This document shows, piece after piece, positions 36,081-45,144 of a stretch of 64,000 bases of DNA. Both the position numbers and the translations under genes were made by a program. The DNA comes from Acidobacteriota bacterium. GTDB taxonomy: Bacteria > Acidobacteriota > Vicinamibacteria > Vicinamibacterales > CAVVIG01. Under the pieces are notes generated by a model. The model was not told where the DNA came from. It saw nothing but the letters and a program-made list of their open reading frames with translations, and ran no database searches. Location of the stretch: the NCBI GenBank assembly GCA_025463215.1, contig JAOBWF010000296.1, positions 1 through 64,000 on the forward strand, read 5' to 3'. How positions within the stretch are numbered: position 1 is the stretch's first letter; every line of letters starts with the position of its first letter.

Positions 36081-37328
36081 TCACTGACCGACGCGCCACG
36101 GCGAGAACTCGGGCCACTTCTTCAGGGCATCGGTTGCCCACGAATTGGTCTTGTCTTTGTGGCAGCCGATGCAAGGATTCGGCACCTTGAGTGTTTCGGT
36201 GACGGATGGGCTGATGAACTTGAACGTATGGCTGCGCACCATCACGTCGCCGATGGTCTGCTCGATCGCGGGCATGTGGCAGCTGATGCACTCGCTGCCG
36301 GCGGAACCAGCTTGGTGATGCGTGTGGTCCTCGATCGTTCCCGTGTGGGGACCGTTCGGCGATTTCGGCCCGTGGCACGTCAGACACAGCAGCCTGGACG
36401 ACTTGATCAAGTCGGCATTGTTCTGCGTGCCGTGCACGTCGTGGCAACTCGCACAGGTGATCCCGCGCGTGTACATGACGCTCGGCACAAAATCATTGCC
36501 CTGCATACGGTTTTTGTGAGCCGTCCCGTCAGCAAAGTGCGTGAACGTCGTCTCGCCGAGTTTGTGCTCCTCAAGCTCCCAGAAGTCCTTCAGGTTCAAG
36601 CCGACTCGAAATCCGACCGGCCAGTCGTACTGCCGGCCCTCGACCGGATTCACGAGAGGCCGGCCCTGCGAGTGACACTGGATGCAGACGTTGACGGCGC
36701 TCACGGGATCGAGACGCGTCGGGTTGACGATGGTGGCGCGCGAGGGTGTGGCGACATGTTCGCTGCCAGGCCCATGACACTTCTCGCAGCCGACGTTCCA
36801 TTCGGTGACGGCCTTCGTCTTGACGTCGTAGTTCACCGAATGACAACCGTCGCAGGTTGGTCCGGTCGGCCGTTTACTGTTCTCCGGCGGATAGAACGCC
36901 GTCCACCAGTCCGTGCCCATCGCCACGTTGTAGGGGCGCCACTGGCGATGCGTCACGTCCCACTGGGCCGGAAGCGGAAAGTAGTCGTCACCGACCTTCG
37001 TGAAATACCGCTGCTTCCACTTACTGCCGTACACGAACGCGATCTGGTCTCGGCCGAACGTCAGAAGCGGATCCGGCTTGGACAGATCCGGAATGATCGC
37101 GTCGGCATGGTCGTGCGGATCCCGCACGACATTGGCCATCCGGGTTTGCTTCCACCGCTCGTAGATCGGGCGGTGGCAGCGCGCGCACGCCGCCGAGCCG
37201 ACATAGGTCGCTGCTGCCGGCGCTTGCGTCGACGCCTGCTGTGCGGCGACGGCGGGCAGACCGACACCGAGCCACAGCCCGCCGAACAATGCTGACCACA
37301 CCATCAGGCCGGCGCGAAACCAGGTCAT
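36081..37328 (-). CDS. Octaheme c-type cytochrome (copy 1)
   Basis: 415 residues with a signal peptide (MTWFRAGLMVWSALFGGLWL). Eight CxxCH motifs start at residues 48, 159, 181, 215, 292, 315, 347 and 386, so it should carry eight c-type haems. The family resembles cytochrome c554/doubled-CxxCH multihaem proteins (CHGPGSEH, TCASCHDVHG, LCLTCHGPKSPNGPHTG). It ends WPEFSPWRVGQ. The ATG overlaps the DUF1259 stop (ATGA at 37325-37328). Its paralogue at 43009 shares every haem motif position, order and the same end. It is probably a periplasmic electron carrier or reductase; the substrate is not evident. Confidence 0.95.
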   Translation of the reverse strand: MTWFRAGLMVWSALFGGLWLGVGLPAVAAQQASTQAPAAATYVGSAACARCHRPIYERWKQTRMANVVRDPHDHADAIIPDLSKPDPLLTFGRDQIAFVYGSKWKQRYFTKVGDDYFPLPAQWDVTHRQWRPYNVAMGTDWWTAFYPPENSKRPTGPTCDGCHSVNYDVKTKAVTEWNVGCEKCHGPGSEHVATPSRATIVNPTRLDPVSAVNVCIQCHSQGRPLVNPVEGRQYDWPVGFRVGLNLKDFWELEEHKLGETTFTHFADGTAHKNRMQGNDFVPSVMYTRGITCASCHDVHGTQNNADLIKSSRLLCLTCHGPKSPNGPHTGTIEDHTHHQAGSAGSECISCHMPAIEQTIGDVMVRSHTFKFISPSVTETLKVPNPCIGCHKDKTNSWATDALKKWPEFSPWRVGQ

Positions 37329-38236
37329 CGGCTCGCTGTCGCCTTCCCTTTGCCGAGCTCATCGAGCGCGGCCTTGAAGCCGGCCGCGAGTTTGTCCGCA
37401 GGTCCGGTCCCCCAGTAGTGGAGGAAGTAAATCGTCGGACTGGTTCCGGTCATATGGTGGTGAATCGCCACGACGTCGAGGCCATTCTTCCGAAGGGCCT
37501 TCAGCACGGGCGTGACCTCGGCCTGCGTCATGGCGACATCCCCCGCGATCGCGGCATTCTCATTCGTGCCGACGAAGGCCGCCCACGTGTTGAGGCCCAT
37601 CCGAGCATTGATCAGTGCCCCCATCTCGGTCAGCTTCAGATCGTCGCGACCGACGGTGATCTTGTAAACCGCGCCGTTGGTCTCTCCCTGGTGGCCGGCG
37701 ATTTGGGCCATCTTCGCAGTGTCGATCGACGGCGTCTGAGCCGGCGTGCCAGCAGCAGGCGGGGCCGCAGGACGACCGCCCTTCCCGATTAGATCGAGCG
37801 CCGGCTTGATCTTGCGCGCCAGTTCGGCCGGGCTGCCGTGACCATGGACATGCATGTAGAACATCCGCGGCTCGTCCCAGAAGAAATGGTTGTGGAGTGC
37901 GGTCGCTTCAAGGCCGTTGTCGAGGAGCGCAGACATCACTGGGTTGACCTCTTCTTGCGTGAGCACGAGGTCGCCCATCATCACGTCCATCCCACCGGTG
38001 CCCTTGGTCATCGCCACCCAGCCGCCGAAACCAAACGGCGTCGGCGTCTTGACGTTCGCGACAGTAATCGAGAGATCGCTCCGAGGGATATTCACCTTCA
38101 GCACGTTGTCCTTGAAATCCCCGGTCTTTCCCAACGTATCCAACACCTGTTTGTACGGCGCCGGCATCTCCTGCGCCTGCGCAAGAGACGCCAGTGAGAT
38201 CAACAACACAACCGTACACCAGACAAAGCGCTTCAT
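37325..38236 (-). CDS. DUF1259 (LppY/LpqO family) protein, two repeats
   Basis: 303 residues from an ATG with GGAGGATCC upstream; signal peptide MKRFVWCTVVLLISLASLAQ. Two tandem DUF1259 units are visible: DLSITVANVKTPTPFGFGGW, EEVNPVMSALLDNGLEATAL and HNHFFWDEPRMFYMHVHGHG in the first; DDLKLTEMGALINARMGLNT, AEVTPVLKALRKNGLDVVAI and HHHMTGTSPTIYFLHYWGTG in the second. The His-rich segments look able to bind metal. The family has no known reaction. It lies 9 bases after the phosphatase-like gene and overlaps the octaheme gene, so all are one transcript. Confidence 0.93.
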   Translation of the reverse strand: MKRFVWCTVVLLISLASLAQAQEMPAPYKQVLDTLGKTGDFKDNVLKVNIPRSDLSITVANVKTPTPFGFGGWVAMTKGTGGMDVMMGDLVLTQEEVNPVMSALLDNGLEATALHNHFFWDEPRMFYMHVHGHGSPAELARKIKPALDLIGKGGRPAAPPAAGTPAQTPSIDTAKMAQIAGHQGETNGAVYKITVGRDDLKLTEMGALINARMGLNTWAAFVGTNENAAIAGDVAMTQAEVTPVLKALRKNGLDVVAIHHHMTGTSPTIYFLHYWGTGPADKLAAGFKAALDELGKGKATASR

Positions 38237-38245
38237 GGATCCTCC

Positions 38246-38725
38246 CTATCGTTTCTGCAGTTGATCGAGCAGCCGCTCGACATGTTTCTTGATGGCATCG
38301 CGCTGGGCCGCGTACCCCTGATCCTCCGGTACGTCGTCCCAACTCTCCGCCTTGCCGCTCGATGCCGCGTGCGACGGCAGGCTGCAGCCGATGGCAAAGA
38401 TGTGCGTTGCCTTCGTGACATCGCCCGTCGTGATCGGGGACGGCTTGGCACTGGGCACGGCAAGGCCGTCCTCGCGTAGGCCCTTCAAGGCGGAGACCGA
38501 CAGTTCCGCTTGCGGGTTGGCGCCCCGATAGGTGGCGCGGTCCGGCAAGCCGCGCTCTGCCGCGAGCTTGTTGAAATAGGCGGTCGCGATGACGCTCTTC
38601 GCCGCGCCGTGCTCGCATACGAACACAACTCTCTCGTCCCCAGTGTCTTGCGCCGCCCCGGCACGCGCGAGAGCGATGACCATCAGCGTCAGTGATAAAC
38701 CCGCACGAACGCGACGCTTCATCAT
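38246..38725 (-). CDS. Exported ArsC/low-molecular-weight phosphatase-like protein with CX5K loop
   Basis: About 159 residues. An N-terminal signal peptide (RAGLSLTLMVIALARAGAAQ) makes it periplasmic, unlike ordinary arsenate reductases and low-molecular-weight tyrosine phosphatases. The phosphate loop reads VVFVCEHGAAKSVIATAYFN: Cys 37, Gly 40, but Lys 43 where the family has Arg. A later CSLPSHAASSGK replaces the usual catalytic Asp-Pro loop, while SWDDVPE is kept. Catalysis of the normal type is doubtful; it may bind an oxyanion instead. Its ATG overlaps the kinase stop (ATGA) and it is followed by DUF1259. Confidence 0.88.
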   Translation of the reverse strand: MMKRRVRAGLSLTLMVIALARAGAAQDTGDERVVFVCEHGAAKSVIATAYFNKLAAERGLPDRATYRGANPQAELSVSALKGLREDGLAVPSAKPSPITTGDVTKATHIFAIGCSLPSHAASSGKAESWDDVPEDQGYAAQRDAIKKHVERLLDQLQKR

Positions 38726-40113
38726 GCTTGTCCTCTTGGTAACGAGATTCGAAACACCGATCCACTCGTCGCACCAGCATCAACGCGAATGGACCCGCCG
38801 TTGATCTCGACCGCCCACTTCGCAATCGCCAACCCGAGCCCTGTTCCACCGGCATCCCTCGAGCGGGCGGTATCCACCCTGAAGAAGCGATCAAAGATTC
38901 GCTCCCGGTGCTCGGCCGCTACGCCCGGACCTTGATCAGTCACCTCGACCACCGCTTGATTACCATCGGCGAGGATTGACACGGCGATCGACGCTCCCAT
39001 CGGGCTGTATTTGATCGCGTTGTCGATCACGTTCGTAATCGCCTCACGAAGCACGAGCCGATCGGCGCGAACCGACAGACCCTCTGCTCCCTCAATCGAG
39101 ATCCGCTGCCCGCGTTCCTCGGCGAGCACGCCCAGCGAGGCGGCGACGTCTCGCGCCAGTTGTCCAAGATCGAGCGGCTCGCGCGAGAGATGCACGCTGC
39201 CGGCATCGCCATGCGAAAGCCGCAGCAATGTGTCGACCAACGTCGTGAGACGGTCGATCTCCTCGAGCATGCTGCCAATGGCTTCCTTGTACTCGGCAGG
39301 CGTGCGGGTTTCGACCAAGCCGGCTTCGCCAATCCCGCGGATCACCGCGAGCGGGGTCCGCAGTTCGTGCGACGCGTCGGCCGTAAAACGACGCAGCTTG
39401 TCGAACGAGGACTCGAGACGCGCGAAGGTGTCGTTGATTACGGCCGCCAGGCGTCCGATCTCGTCGTGCTGATTCGGAACCGAGACGCGTTCGTGGAGGC
39501 GCTCGGCGGTCACCCGCCGCGCTTCGATCGCGAGGTGATCGATCGGCGCCAGCGCTCGCCGCGCGAGGACATAGCCGCCAAGCCCCGCCAAGACGATGAC
39601 GAGCGGCAGCCCCAGTGCGAGCACTTTGAGCACTTCCGACAGTTGCTCGCGCAGCCGTTCTTCCGAACGCGACACTCTCAACACGACGGAGCGACCGCCG
39701 ACCAGCGTCGTTCCGGTCAACGTCCGCCAGCGCCGCCCGGCAGCGACAATCGAGTCATAGTGCGCCTGCGCTCCGGCGGTCGCGAGCGCGACGGGAGGCA
39801 ATGCCCCCGATGCACCCGAGCGGCCAATCTGATCGCCGCTCGACGACCACACATCGCTGCCGCGATCCTCGTCATTATCCGGATCGTGGTGACGATCGCC
39901 GGTCCAGACAATGCGACCGTCCGGCGTCGGCGCAAGCAGGCCCTCCGCCGATTCGAAGTCATCGTGCAGCTGCTCGTCCACGCTCTCCTGGAATTCCTGG
40001 CGAACGGCAATGAACGTCGCGGCGGCGTACACGACCAGCATCAAGGTTAGCACCACGGCGTACCAGGCGGTCATCCGTACCCGAATCGACGCGGCGGACC
40101 ACGGCACCTTCAC
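38722..40113 (-). CDS. CusS-like membrane sensor histidine kinase
   Basis: 463 residues from a GTG overlapping the regulator stop (GTGA at 40110-40113); a longer frame to 40260 only runs through the regulator gene. Two membrane helices (about 14-36 and 163-185) enclose a periplasmic sensor of about 125 residues, which contains an acidic, His-bearing stretch GDRHHDPDNDEDRGSD (72-87) that could bind a metal. A HAMP domain (187-240), the HisKA box FTADASHELRTPLAV with His 249, and an ATPase domain (NVIDNAIKYSP, DQGPGV, GTGLGLAIAKW) follow. It resembles heavy-metal sensor kinases and pairs with the OmpR-type regulator. Confidence 0.94.
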   Translation of the reverse strand: MKVPWSAASIRVRMTAWYAVVLTLMLVVYAAATFIAVRQEFQESVDEQLHDDFESAEGLLAPTPDGRIVWTGDRHHDPDNDEDRGSDVWSSSGDQIGRSGASGALPPVALATAGAQAHYDSIVAAGRRWRTLTGTTLVGGRSVVLRVSRSEERLREQLSEVLKVLALGLPLVIVLAGLGGYVLARRALAPIDHLAIEARRVTAERLHERVSVPNQHDEIGRLAAVINDTFARLESSFDKLRRFTADASHELRTPLAVIRGIGEAGLVETRTPAEYKEAIGSMLEEIDRLTTLVDTLLRLSHGDAGSVHLSREPLDLGQLARDVAASLGVLAEERGQRISIEGAEGLSVRADRLVLREAITNVIDNAIKYSPMGASIAVSILADGNQAVVEVTDQGPGVAAEHRERIFDRFFRVDTARSRDAGGTGLGLAIAKWAVEINGGSIRVDAGATSGSVFRISLPRGQA

Positions 40114-40802
40114 GGCTCGCCTTCTCGCAGAACGAAGCCGACGCCGCGCACGGTGTGAATAAGCCGATCGGTCGCATCGGAATCGACCTTCTTCCGCAGC
40201 CGAGCCATTTGCACGTCGATGACGTTGTCGAGCGGAGTCGCGCGACGCGGTTCCTTCCACACCTCGCGCGCCAGCATTTCCCTGGACACCAGGTGGCCCT
40301 GGTGACGAAGCAGGTACTCGAGCAGTTCAAACTCTCGGGCCGTGAGTTCAAGCAACCGGTCGCCCCGAATTGCGCGTCTGGCGACGAGGTCCATCTCGAG
40401 GTCTGCCGCCTTCAACCGAAAGGCTTCAGACGGGCGCCCACGGCGCAGAAGCGCTCGAACCCGCGCCAGCAGTTCCGGCAGGGCAAACGGCTTGACCAGA
40501 TAGTCGTCGGCGCCGAGGTCGAGGCCCAGCACACGGTCCTCCACGCCGTCGCGAGCCGTCAGGATCAAGACCGGCGTATCGATGTGCCGCTGCCTCAGAG
40601 TTCGCAGAATTTCAAGGCCGCTTCGGCCCGGCAGCATCACGTCGAGCAGGACCAGGTCGAATGCCTCGGCATTCGCACGGAAAAACCCGTCCTCGCCCGT
40701 TGAGGCGACGACCACGTCGTAATGCTCGCCCTTCAGAGCTGACGCCACGGCCTGGGCCAGTTTTCGCTCGTCCTCGACGATCAGTACCCGCACTCGTCGC
40801 AT
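40110..40802 (-). CDS. OmpR/CusR-type response regulator
   Basis: 230 residues from the ATG at 40802. Receiver domain: acidic pocket VLIVEDERKLA, phospho-Asp 54 in LVLLDVMLPGRSG, Lys 104 in DDYLVKPFA. The winged-helix domain has LTAREFELLEYLLRHQGHLV, DNVIDVQMARLRKKV and HTVRGVGFVLRE. It heads a coupled pair with the kinase. A CTGAC-N6-GTCAG element lies about 27 bases before its start and again before the octaheme gene at 44175, suggesting it controls itself and the whole string. Confidence 0.95.
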   Translation of the reverse strand: MRRVRVLIVEDERKLAQAVASALKGEHYDVVVASTGEDGFFRANAEAFDLVLLDVMLPGRSGLEILRTLRQRHIDTPVLILTARDGVEDRVLGLDLGADDYLVKPFALPELLARVRALLRRGRPSEAFRLKAADLEMDLVARRAIRGDRLLELTAREFELLEYLLRHQGHLVSREMLAREVWKEPRRATPLDNVIDVQMARLRKKVDSDATDRLIHTVRGVGFVLREGEP

Positions 40803-40828
40803 CTTACCGGCCACCCACAAGCGGGAAC

Positions 40829-40853
40829 CTGACTTTTGTGTCAGATTGGTCAG
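40829..40853. promoter_or_regulatory. CTGAC-N6-GTCAG element upstream of the regulator
   Basis: On the plus strand CTGAC-TTTTGT-GTCAG is followed after four bases by a further GTCAG. It overlaps the stop codon of the DUF5916 gene and ends 27 bases before the regulator start. The same layout (CTGAC, 6 bases, GTCAG, spacer, GTCAG) recurs at 44234-44260. Binding by the OmpR-type regulator is inferred. Confidence 0.6.
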
Positions 40854-43027
40854 AAGCGAGTGGTGTACTGGAGCTTCGCCGAGGCTCGATCGAAAACAGG
40901 CTCGAAGCGCCCCTCGTCGAGCGTTCGATGCCAGCCGCGATTAATCGTTAGGAAGAGATCATTGCCGGGCTGGAGGATCCAGCGAAACCGGCTCTGCAAG
41001 CCAAGAACCCTCGACTCATTGTCGTACTGCGCAAGATTCGCCCACGACAGGTTGGGAGTGACGTTATAGTCGGCTTTCACGGTCAGAAGGTCGGTCTGGA
41101 ACGCGCCCTCAGGGAGCATGGCTACATCTCGCTCGCCCTGGACGGACAGTGCCACATGGCGGCTCGGCTTCAACGTGGCTCCAAACTCGACCTGCCCTAA
41201 CGTTCCTTCGTAGAAACCGCCCCACCACACGGCCGCGTCGATCACCCACCACCTCTTGGTCGCGGTGTTCACTTCAGTCCGGTATCTCGTCCACCGGTAC
41301 GACCCGGACGGAATCACGACGCCCGGCGAAATCTCGAACGGCAGATCGAGGTGTTCGAAGGTGGGGACGTAGTCCCATTCCAGGTGCTCGCCGGACTCCG
41401 TCCGCAGATTGACGGGCGCGGTGAACACGCTCCAGCTTTCCAGACGATTCTGCACATTCGTGACCACAACGGGATTCACTTCAAAGAAGAACTGCCTGAC
41501 GCCCCAGCGCTCGGGTCTGGGCTGAAATGCGAGGGAGACATCGGTCTTCCGGATGCCAGTGCGCGGGACGAAGCCGAGTGCGGGTTGGAACCGCTCCCCG
41601 ATCTGTCGCCAGTTCAGCGCGACGTCCCATCGATCGTTCGGATAGTCGATCCGAAATCCGCCGGCGCCATCGCGCGCCCCCGTAGCGCCGTCGTCGGTGC
41701 CAAGCAGGAACAGATCGAGCGACAGGTTCTTGTTGCCGTGAAAGGTCGATGTCGCAAACCGCGCGTCGCCGCCGATCAACGTGTTGGTACCGGAACCGCT
41801 CGGATCGCCGTGCGTCAGGATGCCACCCACCCATGATTGCTGAAACAGATTGCGGCTAACGCGCGCGACGAGAAGATTCTGCCGATCAATGGATCCACCC
41901 GGCAGTGCGGCATCGCCGACTGCCCCCGTCTCCACCTCGAGGACGCCGATGTTGTAGTCGGACTGCCGGCCGGTCAGCTTGACGCCGAGACGCACGGGTA
42001 CCGCCACATCGTCCAGCAGTCCGATGCGCCGGCTGAAGAACGGGCGGAGATCGGTCGTATTGATTAACCCGGCGACGTCAAAGACACCGGCACCTTCGAG
42101 GAAGAAGCTTCGCTTCTCTGGAAAGAACAGCGGAAACCGCGTGAGATTCACCTGGCGAAGATCGGCTTCGGTCTCCGCAAAGTCCGTGTTCACGGTGACG
42201 GCGGCGTTCACACTCGGTGTCAGGCTTTTGAACAGATCAACACCGGCAGCCGCGTCACCGGCGCCGCTGCTCCTCCCGGCCGAACCGTATGGCCGGACGT
42301 CGAGGCCCAGGCCCTGCCCCACACCGTCAAGGCCGTCGAGTTGTCCTACTTCCGCGAGGTTGCTGATCCAGACGTTCTGCCGCGCAGCGGTCCACCGATC
42401 GATCTCCTGCCGGCGTTTGATCTGCCGCTCGACGTTGAAGCCCCAGACTGGCTGACCCGGCTTGAACCGGAGCGTCTTGAACGGAATCTCAATCTCCGCG
42501 ACCCACCCGTCGGTCGTGATGCGGGCGGCGGCGTTCCAGATCCCATCCCAGTCGCGGCTGAGACTCTCGGCGTTGTTCGACACCTGCCCGTCCGCGCGAG
42601 CGCCTGCCGCATTCACTTGAAAGAAGAACCCGTTTCGATGGTCGAAGAAAGGATCAAGGACGATGGTCAGACGATCGTCGACCTCGAGGTCCGCATCGCG
42701 GGATAGCTGGGTCGCGATGATCTCGCGCGGCGATCGGTCATGGCAGACGGCGCCTATGTACAAGGCCGTCCCCGTGAGCAATACTCGGATCTCCGTCTCT
42801 TCGGAGGGTTCGCCGCCCTCGACAGGTTCTCGCTGGACGAACCGACTCAGCGGGATCGTCGATTGCCACGCCGCTTCATCGAGCCGCCCATCGATCCGAA
42901 TCGTCTCAGTGGTGCGCGTCGCCGTCGTGTGCACGATGAGGACGTCGGCCGCTTGCCCCGCCGTGAGCGGCACGCTGAACCACGCGATGACCGCGACACA
43001 CGCCGCAGCTACTGACCGACGCGCCAC
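40850..43027 (-). CDS. DUF5916 outer-membrane protein with CBM9-like domain
   Basis: 725 residues from a GTG (43027) that lies inside the end of the octaheme gene, giving a 19-base overlap; the start is chosen because a signal peptide follows directly (SVAAACVAVIAWFSVPLTAG). Residues about 40-235 form a CBM9/DOMON-like beta-sandwich (IRIDGRLDEAAWQ, DDRLTIVLDPFFDHRNGFFF, WVAEIEIPFKTLRF). From about 245 on is the DUF5916 region with FPLFFPEKRSFFLEGAGVF and many amphipathic strands, ending QYTTRF with the terminal Phe of barrel proteins. Its coupling to an octaheme cytochrome suggests an outer-membrane partner, but the family function is unknown. Confidence 0.93.
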   Translation of the reverse strand: MARRSVAAACVAVIAWFSVPLTAGQAADVLIVHTTATRTTETIRIDGRLDEAAWQSTIPLSRFVQREPVEGGEPSEETEIRVLLTGTALYIGAVCHDRSPREIIATQLSRDADLEVDDRLTIVLDPFFDHRNGFFFQVNAAGARADGQVSNNAESLSRDWDGIWNAAARITTDGWVAEIEIPFKTLRFKPGQPVWGFNVERQIKRRQEIDRWTAARQNVWISNLAEVGQLDGLDGVGQGLGLDVRPYGSAGRSSGAGDAAAGVDLFKSLTPSVNAAVTVNTDFAETEADLRQVNLTRFPLFFPEKRSFFLEGAGVFDVAGLINTTDLRPFFSRRIGLLDDVAVPVRLGVKLTGRQSDYNIGVLEVETGAVGDAALPGGSIDRQNLLVARVSRNLFQQSWVGGILTHGDPSGSGTNTLIGGDARFATSTFHGNKNLSLDLFLLGTDDGATGARDGAGGFRIDYPNDRWDVALNWRQIGERFQPALGFVPRTGIRKTDVSLAFQPRPERWGVRQFFFEVNPVVVTNVQNRLESWSVFTAPVNLRTESGEHLEWDYVPTFEHLDLPFEISPGVVIPSGSYRWTRYRTEVNTATKRWWVIDAAVWWGGFYEGTLGQVEFGATLKPSRHVALSVQGERDVAMLPEGAFQTDLLTVKADYNVTPNLSWANLAQYDNESRVLGLQSRFRWILQPGNDLFLTINRGWHRTLDEGRFEPVFDRASAKLQYTTRF

Positions 43028-44175
43028 GGCGAGAACTCCGGCCATGTCCTCAATGCCGCGGTGGCCCAGGCCGGCGTCTTGTCGGTGTGGCACGTCGTGC
43101 ACGCGTCCGGCATCTTCAGCCGTTCCGCTTCCGCCGGCACGATGAACTTGAACGTATGGCTGCGCACCATGACATCGCCCAGCATCTGGGCAATCTTCGG
43201 CATGTGACAACTGACGCATTCGCTGCCGGCCGATCCCGGTGCGTGGTGGGTGTGTTGCTCGATCGTCGCTGTATGCGGGCCGTTCGGCGACTTCGGGCCA
43301 TGACAGGTCAGGCAGACTGTGCGCGCCGGCTTGATCAAATCGGCATTGTTCGGTGTCCCGTGCGGATCGTGACAGCTCGCACAGGTGACGCCGCGCGTAT
43401 ACATCAGGCTCTGAACGAAGTCGTTGCCCTGCATTCGATTCTCGCGGGCACTGCCCTCGGCAAAATGCAGGGTGTCCTGCGTACCCACGGTGTGGTCGTC
43501 CAGTTTCCAGAAGTCGGCGAGTCGCAGACCAACGCGAAACCCCACCGGCCAGTGAAACTCACGGCCTCCGATGGGACCATGTGGATGGCCTTCGGAGTGA
43601 CACTGAACGCAGACGTCCACAGCCGCAACGGTCGACAGCTTCGCGGGATTCACGATGTTCGTCGCCGCCGGCCGCGCGACGTGATCGCTGCCCGGCCCGT
43701 GGCACCGCTCGCAGCCGACGTTCCATTCCGTCACCGTCTTACGCTCGACGTCGTAATTGACCGAGTGGCAGCCGTCGCAGAGCGCGCTGGTCGCGCGGCT
43801 GACGCCGTACGCGACCCACCGACGATGCGTCACGTCCCAGGTCACCGGGAACGGGTTAAAGTCGTCTCCCACCTTCTTGAAGTAGCGCTGCTTGTATTTG
43901 CCGCCGTAGACGAACGCGATCTGATCCTTCGTGAAGGTCACGAGCGCATCCGGCGTGCTGAAATCCCCGACGATCGCCTCAGGATGCTCGCGCGGGTCGC
44001 GGACGACGTTGGCCATGCGGGTCTTCTTCCAACGCTCGAAAGTCGGCGCATGGCAGCGCCCGCAGGCGGCCGAACCGACATAAGTCGCAGTGGCTGGCGC
44101 CGGCGACTGCGCCACCACCCACATGGTCGCGCACGAGAGACAGCTGGCCAGCACAACGAGCCGCAGTCCGGTCAT
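43009..44175 (-). CDS. Octaheme c-type cytochrome (copy 2), first gene of the string
   Basis: 388 residues from the ATG at 44175; an in-frame start six codons earlier is possible. Signal peptide MTGLRLVVLASCLSCATMWV. Counting from that earlier start, the eight CxxCH motifs begin at 44, 139, 161, 195, 271, 294, 326 and 365, in the same order and context as copy 1 (SAACGRCH, CDGCHSVNYD, CHGPGSDH, TCHGPKSPNGPHT), and the same end WPEFSPWRVGQ. It lacks about 15 residues present in copy 1 before the second haem (the WWTAFYPPE segment). It heads the minus-strand string and is preceded by the CTGAC-N6-GTCAG element. Confidence 0.95.
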   Translation of the reverse strand: MTGLRLVVLASCLSCATMWVVAQSPAPATATYVGSAACGRCHAPTFERWKKTRMANVVRDPREHPEAIVGDFSTPDALVTFTKDQIAFVYGGKYKQRYFKKVGDDFNPFPVTWDVTHRRWVAYGVSRATSALCDGCHSVNYDVERKTVTEWNVGCERCHGPGSDHVARPAATNIVNPAKLSTVAAVDVCVQCHSEGHPHGPIGGREFHWPVGFRVGLRLADFWKLDDHTVGTQDTLHFAEGSARENRMQGNDFVQSLMYTRGVTCASCHDPHGTPNNADLIKPARTVCLTCHGPKSPNGPHTATIEQHTHHAPGSAGSECVSCHMPKIAQMLGDVMVRSHTFKFIVPAEAERLKMPDACTTCHTDKTPAWATAALRTWPEFSPWRVGQ

Positions 44176-44233
44176 TCGTGATCCAGTGCGCACGCGGGTA
44201 AACCTAGCAGGAAACCATTCGATTTCTCCGAAT

Positions 44234-44260
44234 CTGACGCAAACGTCAGGAACATGTCAG
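44234..44260. promoter_or_regulatory. CTGAC-N6-GTCAG element upstream of the octaheme string
   Basis: A perfect dyad CTGACG-CAAA-CGTCAG (44234-44249) is followed by GAACAT and another GTCAG (44256-44260). It lies about 59 bases before the first octaheme start. The match in layout to 40829-40853 supports a shared regulator site. Confidence 0.65.
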
Positions 44261-44319
44261 GCGCGGCGCCGCGATGCATCGCTACGAGTGATCGCCCTTG
44301 CGTCGCGCGGCGCGACCTG

Positions 44320-45144
44320 ACAATTTCCCACACCCTGGCCGGTTCGCTGGCGACCGCGCTGGGCTCCTTGAGCGCCGGCGCCATCGTTCAGGCGCTGCAG
44401 CGGACTGGCGCGATGACCGACGTCAGCAGCTATCGCCTCGTGATCCTCGTCTACGCCGCCCTGGGAGCCGTGCTCGCATTCCTGATCACACGTGTGTCGT
44501 CAGCGTCGGAGGTCGTCGGCCAGGGCGAGCAACTCGCGGCTCGAGCGACGCTCGCCGGTCTTACGGGTCTCCACGAAGGGCGCCGCATCGTGCTCAAACT
44601 CTCGAGTTTGTTCGCGCTCGACTCATTCGGCGGCGGGTTCGTGATCCAAAGTTTCGCGGCCTACTGGTTTCACCTGCGGTTCGGTGTGAATCCAGCAACA
44701 CTGGGTGTCCTGTTCTTCGCCGCGAACGTCCTCGCGGGCATTTCGGCGCTTTTCGCGGCCCGGATGGCCGCCCGCTTCGGCCTGCTCAATACGATGGTCG
44801 CCACGCACCTGCCGTCGAACGTTCTGCTGATTCTCATACCGTTGATGGGGACCCTGCCGCTGGCGGCGCTGTTGCTGCTCGTCCGCTTCAGCATCAGCCA
44901 AATGGATGTTCCAACGAGGCAGTCCTATGTGATGGCCGTCGTCCGGCCGGAGGAACGCTCCGCTGCGGCGGGCATCACGGGAGTGGCGCGAACCCTCGGC
45001 GCCGCACTCAGCCCGATGCTCGCGGGTCTGCTATTCGCCAGACCGTCACTGATCAATGTTCCGTTCTTCATCGCCGGCACGCTGAAGATGACCTACGACG
45101 TGTGGCTGTATCGGGAGTTCAGGGCGGTCCGGCAGCACGACTAA
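44320..45144 (+). pseudogene. MFS transporter lacking its N-terminal part
   Basis: The frame from SHTLAGSLATALGSLSAG to EFRAVRQHD has eight or so membrane helices of a major facilitator (LFALDSFGGGFVIQSFAAYW, LGVLFFAANVLAGISALFAA, VRFSISQMDVPTRQSYVMAV, GVARTLGAALSPMLAGLLFA). Relatives are about 400 residues; here the first four helices are missing and the upstream DNA is the promoter of the octaheme string. The next possible start at 44254 adds only unrelated residues. The break point at about 44320 looks like a deletion junction. Transport activity is unlikely. Confidence 0.75.

Follow-up and report, generated by a model that had tools for sequence, protein, structure and literature searches.

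Two octaheme cytochromes and an OmpR-type response regulator are encoded in one locus that carries the palindrome CTGAC-N6-GTCAG twice, once ahead of the regulator gene and once ahead of the first cytochrome gene. Are both copies operators of this regulator? In the window, that is the whole stretch of 64,000 nucleotides that was analysed, the gene order on the minus strand is octaheme, DUF5916, response regulator, histidine kinase, phosphatase-like protein, DUF1259 and second octaheme.

Two dyads in a cytochrome and regulator locus

The first octaheme c-type cytochrome (43009-44193), which has eight CXXCH motifs, is the predicted target; its start is either GTG 44193 or ATG 44175, the former being probable. 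In the predicted operon it is followed by the gene for a DUF5916/CBM9_1 outer-membrane-type protein (40850-43030). The regulator (40110-40793) matches the receiver domain PF00072 and Trans_reg_C (PF00486) well above cut-off and is a member of the OmpR/PhoB family, and the sensor histidine kinase (38722-40113; HAMP, HisKA, HATPase_c) is its cognate partner by position. The sensor kinases of the regulator's clade share a largely conserved extracytoplasmic stretch, HHDPDNDED, which could bind a cation, and we offer this as a suggestion only. A low-molecular-weight phosphatase-like gene (38246-38725; weak match, just above cut-off) with the motif CEHGAAKS sits between the kinase gene and the gene for the DUF1259 protein (37325-38236), which repeatedly turns up downstream of the kinase in clade members; among the RR-HK loci L148-L156, a DUF1259 gene of the LppY/LpqO type comes directly after the kinase in L149, L152, L154, L155 and L156. 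The second octaheme cytochrome (36081-37328), likewise with eight CXXCH motifs, is probably encoded on the regulator transcript.

Exact dyads are found at 40829-40844 (CTGACTTTTGTGTCAG) and 44234-44249 (CTGACGCAAACGTCAG), where an earlier note on this DNA had placed them, and there is no third copy in the 64 kb window. The two copies compare with 0.05 expected, and none of 100 dinucleotide shuffles of the window contained two. The view that two copies make chance unlikely thus holds within the window, but the bare motif as such occurs at genome background (see below). On the minus strand, the predicted regulator operator, a 16-bp dyad at 40829-40844, reads CTGACACAAAAGTCAG, and the predicted octaheme operator (44234-44260), which combines the 16-bp dyad at 44234-44249 with an in-phase half-site at 44256-44260, reads CTGACATGTTCCTGACGTTTGCGTCAG. 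The additional GTCAG copies reported at 40849-40853 and 44256-44260 are both present. Distances of 27 and 59 bases had been given to the starts; these figures are correct for the ATG codons, but the genes probably start at GTG codons, the conserved one at 40793 and, nearer to its dyad, that at 44193.

The earlier note had also ascribed the same layout to both elements, which is true of the dyad but not of the third half-site, since the latter is in phase in the octaheme copy alone. There, all three half-sites follow an 11-bp period (CTGAC-N6-GTCAG-N6-GTCAG), whereas the third half-site of the regulator copy (spacer N4) is 9 bp off and thus misses the 11-bp grid, covers part of the DUF5916 stop codon (TTC TGA, 40850-40852) and shows no conservation among the orthologues. 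For these reasons, the GTCAG at 40849-40853 is read as probably incidental to the regulator element. In-phase third half-sites recur in other elements besides the octaheme element: such an AgrR-like repeat is present in the octaheme site and in genomes G042 and G043, and absent from the window's regulator site.

Conservation of the dyad and its distance to the promoter

Regulator homologues were taken with their flanks from 193 genomes of the class, and a tree built from 80 regulators placed the window's regulator in a clade of 13 orthologues (support 100/99). The exact dyad lies just upstream of the gene in eight of the 13; four have a version that departs from it at one or two bases, and in one member, G054, no dyad can be recognised. 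The arrangement of CTGAC and, 11 bp on, GTCAG was observed eight times, as compared to 0.00 expected from dinucleotide shuffles. Absence from related loci with the regulator had been named as grounds for dropping the idea; the element, exact or variant, is present in 12/13, and this strong phylogenetic footprint supports the proposal of a shared operator for an OmpR/CusR-type regulator. The pattern CTGACRNAAARGTCAG occurs at six places in the 193 genomes, all of them intergenic and directly upstream of clade regulators, and its control pattern at none. A scan of named genomes for the regulator returned only relatives of at most 53% identity, which are too distant to help.

The bare palindrome CTGAC-N6-GTCAG occurs at six places in the whole genome and so does the reversed control pattern, so that the bare motif alone is not diagnostic. 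It was counted 71 times in ~69.6 Mb from 12 related genomes with a close regulator relative and 79 times in ~70.3 Mb from 16 family-member genomes without a clade member, i.e. about once per Mb with or without the regulator and with no enrichment in regulator-bearing genomes. Enrichment of the bare motif as proof was rejected because of this background rate. The earlier note had proposed to abandon the motif if it proved common genome-wide. Read literally, this test counts against it, as the bare palindrome stands at background, but the extended motif occurs at regulator promoters only. Four further dyads of the source genome were inspected: the one in G000:C348 falls in the stretch that encodes the C-terminus of an S9 peptidase, the same sequence being coding in G066, and those in G000 C231 and C271 are likewise inside open frames.

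Most clade orthologues have a TAACAT-like -10 box 22-23 nt after GTCAG. Measured from the last half-site, TANNNT is offset by 22 nt in eight members, 23 nt in two, and 27 and 28 nt in one each; the background frequency of TANNNT there is 0.0012 per position. In the window, the -10-like box TAAGAT (40801-40806, minus strand) follows the operator at 22 nt. The spacing of 22-23 nt in most clade members would place a bound regulator in the position of a type II activator relative to the -10 box. The regulator coordinates 40110-40802 of the earlier note had to be revised: ATG 40802 falls within the -10 box, residue 4 of the frame as called from this ATG is encoded by GTG in 12/13 clade members, and orthologue homology begins at that codon, GTG 40793. 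GTG 40793 is therefore the likely start instead of the ATG, and the message is probably leaderless, since the conserved start codon stands 7-9 nt after TANNNT in 12 of the 13. Leaderless genes of bacteria, Acidobacteria among them, are marked by TANNNT ~12 bp ahead of the start (PMC3160421), and the clade regulator promoters appear to conform to this signature.

When dyad, N22 and TANNNT are combined, 11 places remain in the class, as compared to three for the control pattern. Eight of the 11 are at clade-regulator or linked promoters, all in genomes with a clade regulator, and three are unrelated. The eight include regulator promoters, the promoter of a regulator relic in G051:C18, a relic promoter in G061 and a DUF1259 homologue in G051. 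Hence, the bare palindrome is a poor predictor, whereas specificity becomes very high once its spacing from the -10 box is taken into account, and this operator-plus-promoter signature predicts the regulon in relatives. The relic in G051:C18 (L290, 3422-3640) is a regulator gene with a large internal deletion that has kept operator and 22-nt promoter, and it adjoins an intact kinase gene (75%) and a DUF1259 gene. A 260-bp stretch of G061:C838 (L285, 4334-4590) holds three operators, of which two stand back to back and have 22-nt promoters pointing both ways; its neighbours are relic kinase fragments, an ORF for a ChrB C-terminal domain, a beta-propeller protein and a DUF5916 homologue.

Regulator homologues further from the clade, but within the class, show CTGAA/TTCAG direct repeats with an 11-bp period, which lie ~22-24 nt from the -10 box where measured. 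Half-sites of this PmrA-like operator class were seen at the upstream regions L163, L164, L188, L190 and L205-L211. In the recognition helix, Gln is found in all 13 clade members and His in most others, at a position that, by our own mapping of PMC4660055, adjoins but is not among the base-contacting residues of PmrA. As three non-clade regulators with GTCAG dyads have His (two) or Asn (one), the relation of this residue to operator type is a correlation only, and suggestive only.

The octaheme promoter and competing readings

In strand order, CTGACATGTTCCTGACGTTTGCGTCAG is followed by 27 nt, the -10-like box TAGGTT (44201-44206, minus strand), 7 nt and GTG 44193. Near-identical triple elements stand at the regulator promoters of G042 and G043, 28 and 27 nt from the -10 box, respectively. 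G066 holds the sole other regulator-linked octaheme gene; facing its regulator gene, it has a dyad at 28 nt and shares the 27-28 nt geometry with the window site. This operator-bearing gene is more closely related (68%) to the second octaheme of the window. No such site precedes the other octaheme homologues fetched, among them the G066 homologue that best matches the first octaheme. The motif was therefore rejected as a property of octaheme genes, as it is missing unless the regulator is adjacent; it tracks the regulator, not the octaheme. The octaheme link is based on two loci, and the region in G066 is common with the divergent regulator. We favour, with a rough probability of 0.78, the reading that the dyads form an autoregulated Cus/Cop/AgrR-like operator of the 40110-40793 regulator, which would also drive the octaheme operon.

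Alternatively, the site at 44234-44260 could be the remnant of a divergent plus-strand MFS promoter, the octaheme being controlled otherwise, although we consider this unlikely. An MFS transporter remnant without the N-terminal part (44254-45144, plus strand; Pfam MFS_1 matched from profile position 128) begins almost flush with the operator, and its relatives are full-length open frames of 412-466 aa. Toward this gene, the last plus-strand GTCAG is followed at 22 nt by TACGAG (44283-44288, plus strand), one base from TANNNT and possibly a decayed -10 box; for comparison, G061 has TACGAT at this 22-nt spacing, and G042 has TAGGAT. Moreover, a very similar element lies upstream of a full-length, 58%-identical MFS gene in G062, and a homologous MFS gene lies next to the regulator in G064. 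However, the window's MFS gene is 5'-truncated and its -10 box lacks the key last T, whereas the octaheme side has TANNNT at the geometry predicted from other loci. Most MFS homologues are without the site, G062 being the only one besides the window to carry it, and the motif as an MFS-family property was rejected. Both readings can hold at once, since the element in G042 appears bidirectional: efflux genes are faced by a promoter at 22 nt and the regulator, on the opposite side, by one at 28 nt.

Similarly improbable is that the regulator binds the sites but represses, i.e. exerts negative autoregulation. Repression would also be in keeping with sites that overlap the -35 region, and unphosphorylated E. 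coli CusR, described as repressor of its single target without metal, provides a precedent (PMC8249747). A spacing of 22 nt from the -10 box and poor -35 hexamers (GGAAAC, GGTTCC) are, however, in line with promoters that depend on an activator, and AgrR, whose box is similar, is a positively autoregulated type II activator (PMC7380067). Recognition of the dyads by a regulator other than the 40110-40793 product has even less in its favour. Operators can be common to related OmpR-type regulators, as CusR, CopR and CzcR use one palindrome (PMC11195947), and further OmpR-family genes are present in the genome, yet across the 193 genomes the extended motif tracks the regulator clade and is missing from those that have more distant homologues only. 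That the dyads are chance palindromes or short terminator stems is hardly credible at all: the frequency of the bare motif in these genomes and the dyads inside coding frames would fit chance, but the footprint, with its fixed distance upstream of the -10 box and of the orthologous start codon in most of the 13 orthologues, contradicts it, and no T run follows the dyads.

Known operators and the proposed control of the locus

The window shares with Cus/Cop/AgrR-type operators an inverted repeat of ~16 bp with TGAC...GTCA-like half-sites upstream of a regulator gene. The likeness of the TGAC-N6-GTCA core to OmpR/CusR-type boxes, which had been pointed out before, is borne out: the E. coli CusR box, AAAATGACAAnnTTGTCATTTT, has identical half-site spacing, and the P. 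aeruginosa CopR consensus, CTGACAn5GTAAT, is similar, its left half CTGACA being identical to that of the window's regulator-type site (PMC11195947). As in the window, the CusR and CopR sites lie between regulator and target genes, but flanking bases and host lineage differ, and so do the targets, which are CusCFBA or Pco in those systems and, by prediction, multi-heme cytochromes, DUF5916 and DUF1259 here. The AgrR box of Cupriavidus metallidurans has the architecture seen here, an inverted repeat plus an in-phase direct repeat; its half-site, however, is ATTACA with a 4-bp spacer rather than CTGAC with 6, and AgrR has silver/copper targets with binding and activation shown, whereas the window counterpart is predicted from sequence (PMC7380067). 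PmrA, also an OmpR/PhoB-type regulator, shares the 11-bp half-site period, but its box, e.g. CTTAAT-N5-CCTAAG, consists of head-to-tail direct repeats (PMC3973317), as compared to the inverted pair of the window clade, with GTCAG replacing TTCAG.

The best family match of the regulator, TIGR01387 (CzcR/SilR/CopR), scores 236.2 bits and thus below the curated cut-off of 279.2, and that of the kinase, TIGR01386 (CzcS/SilS/CopS), 277.8 bits (280.5 for the G042 orthologue) with a cut-off of 292.55. CusA/CzcA-type efflux as a target was rejected, as the RND pumps beside orthologues reach 367-374 bits against TIGR00914 (HME; cut-off 701). By analogy, the window's system would work like a Cus/Cop/AgrR system, though it scores below the curated heavy-metal family cut-offs.

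The proposed control builds on the motifs, their conservation in the clade, the fixed geometry, the arrangement of targets and the absence from regulator-unlinked octahemes, all of which are seen directly in the DNA. A signal to the adjacent kinase would yield phosphorylated regulator, which would bind the CTGAC-N6-GTCAG dyad as an OmpR-family dimer on half-sites spaced by one turn of the helix (11 bp). In front of its own gene, where 22 nt separate the end of the dyad from the -10 box and the site adjoins or overlaps the -35 region, it would occupy a class II activation position and thereby promote the synthesis of its own, nearly leaderless mRNA (positive autoregulation). In front of the octaheme gene, the dyad and the extra in-phase half-site, 27 nt before the -10 box, would drive the octaheme, DUF5916 and downstream genes. 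From the features listed we infer that the regulator binds, that it activates rather than represses, that translation is leaderless and that the signal is metal-like.

The locus thus appears as a further case, new and well supported, of a known type of control, in which a palindrome-based operator would switch on a regulator and a multi-heme operon. Considerably more tentative is a wider view: a two-component system that is metal-related, outside the curated Cus/Czc families, may directly control octaheme cytochromes via a clade-specific operator, the shift from TTCAG direct repeats to the GTCAG dyad having possibly occurred together with the replacement of His by Gln in the recognition helix, and one element may fire both ways under a 22/27-nt rule. 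For a lineage in which experiments are few, the finding would tie the regulation of multi-heme cytochromes to a metal-type sensor-regulator pair in concrete, testable terms.
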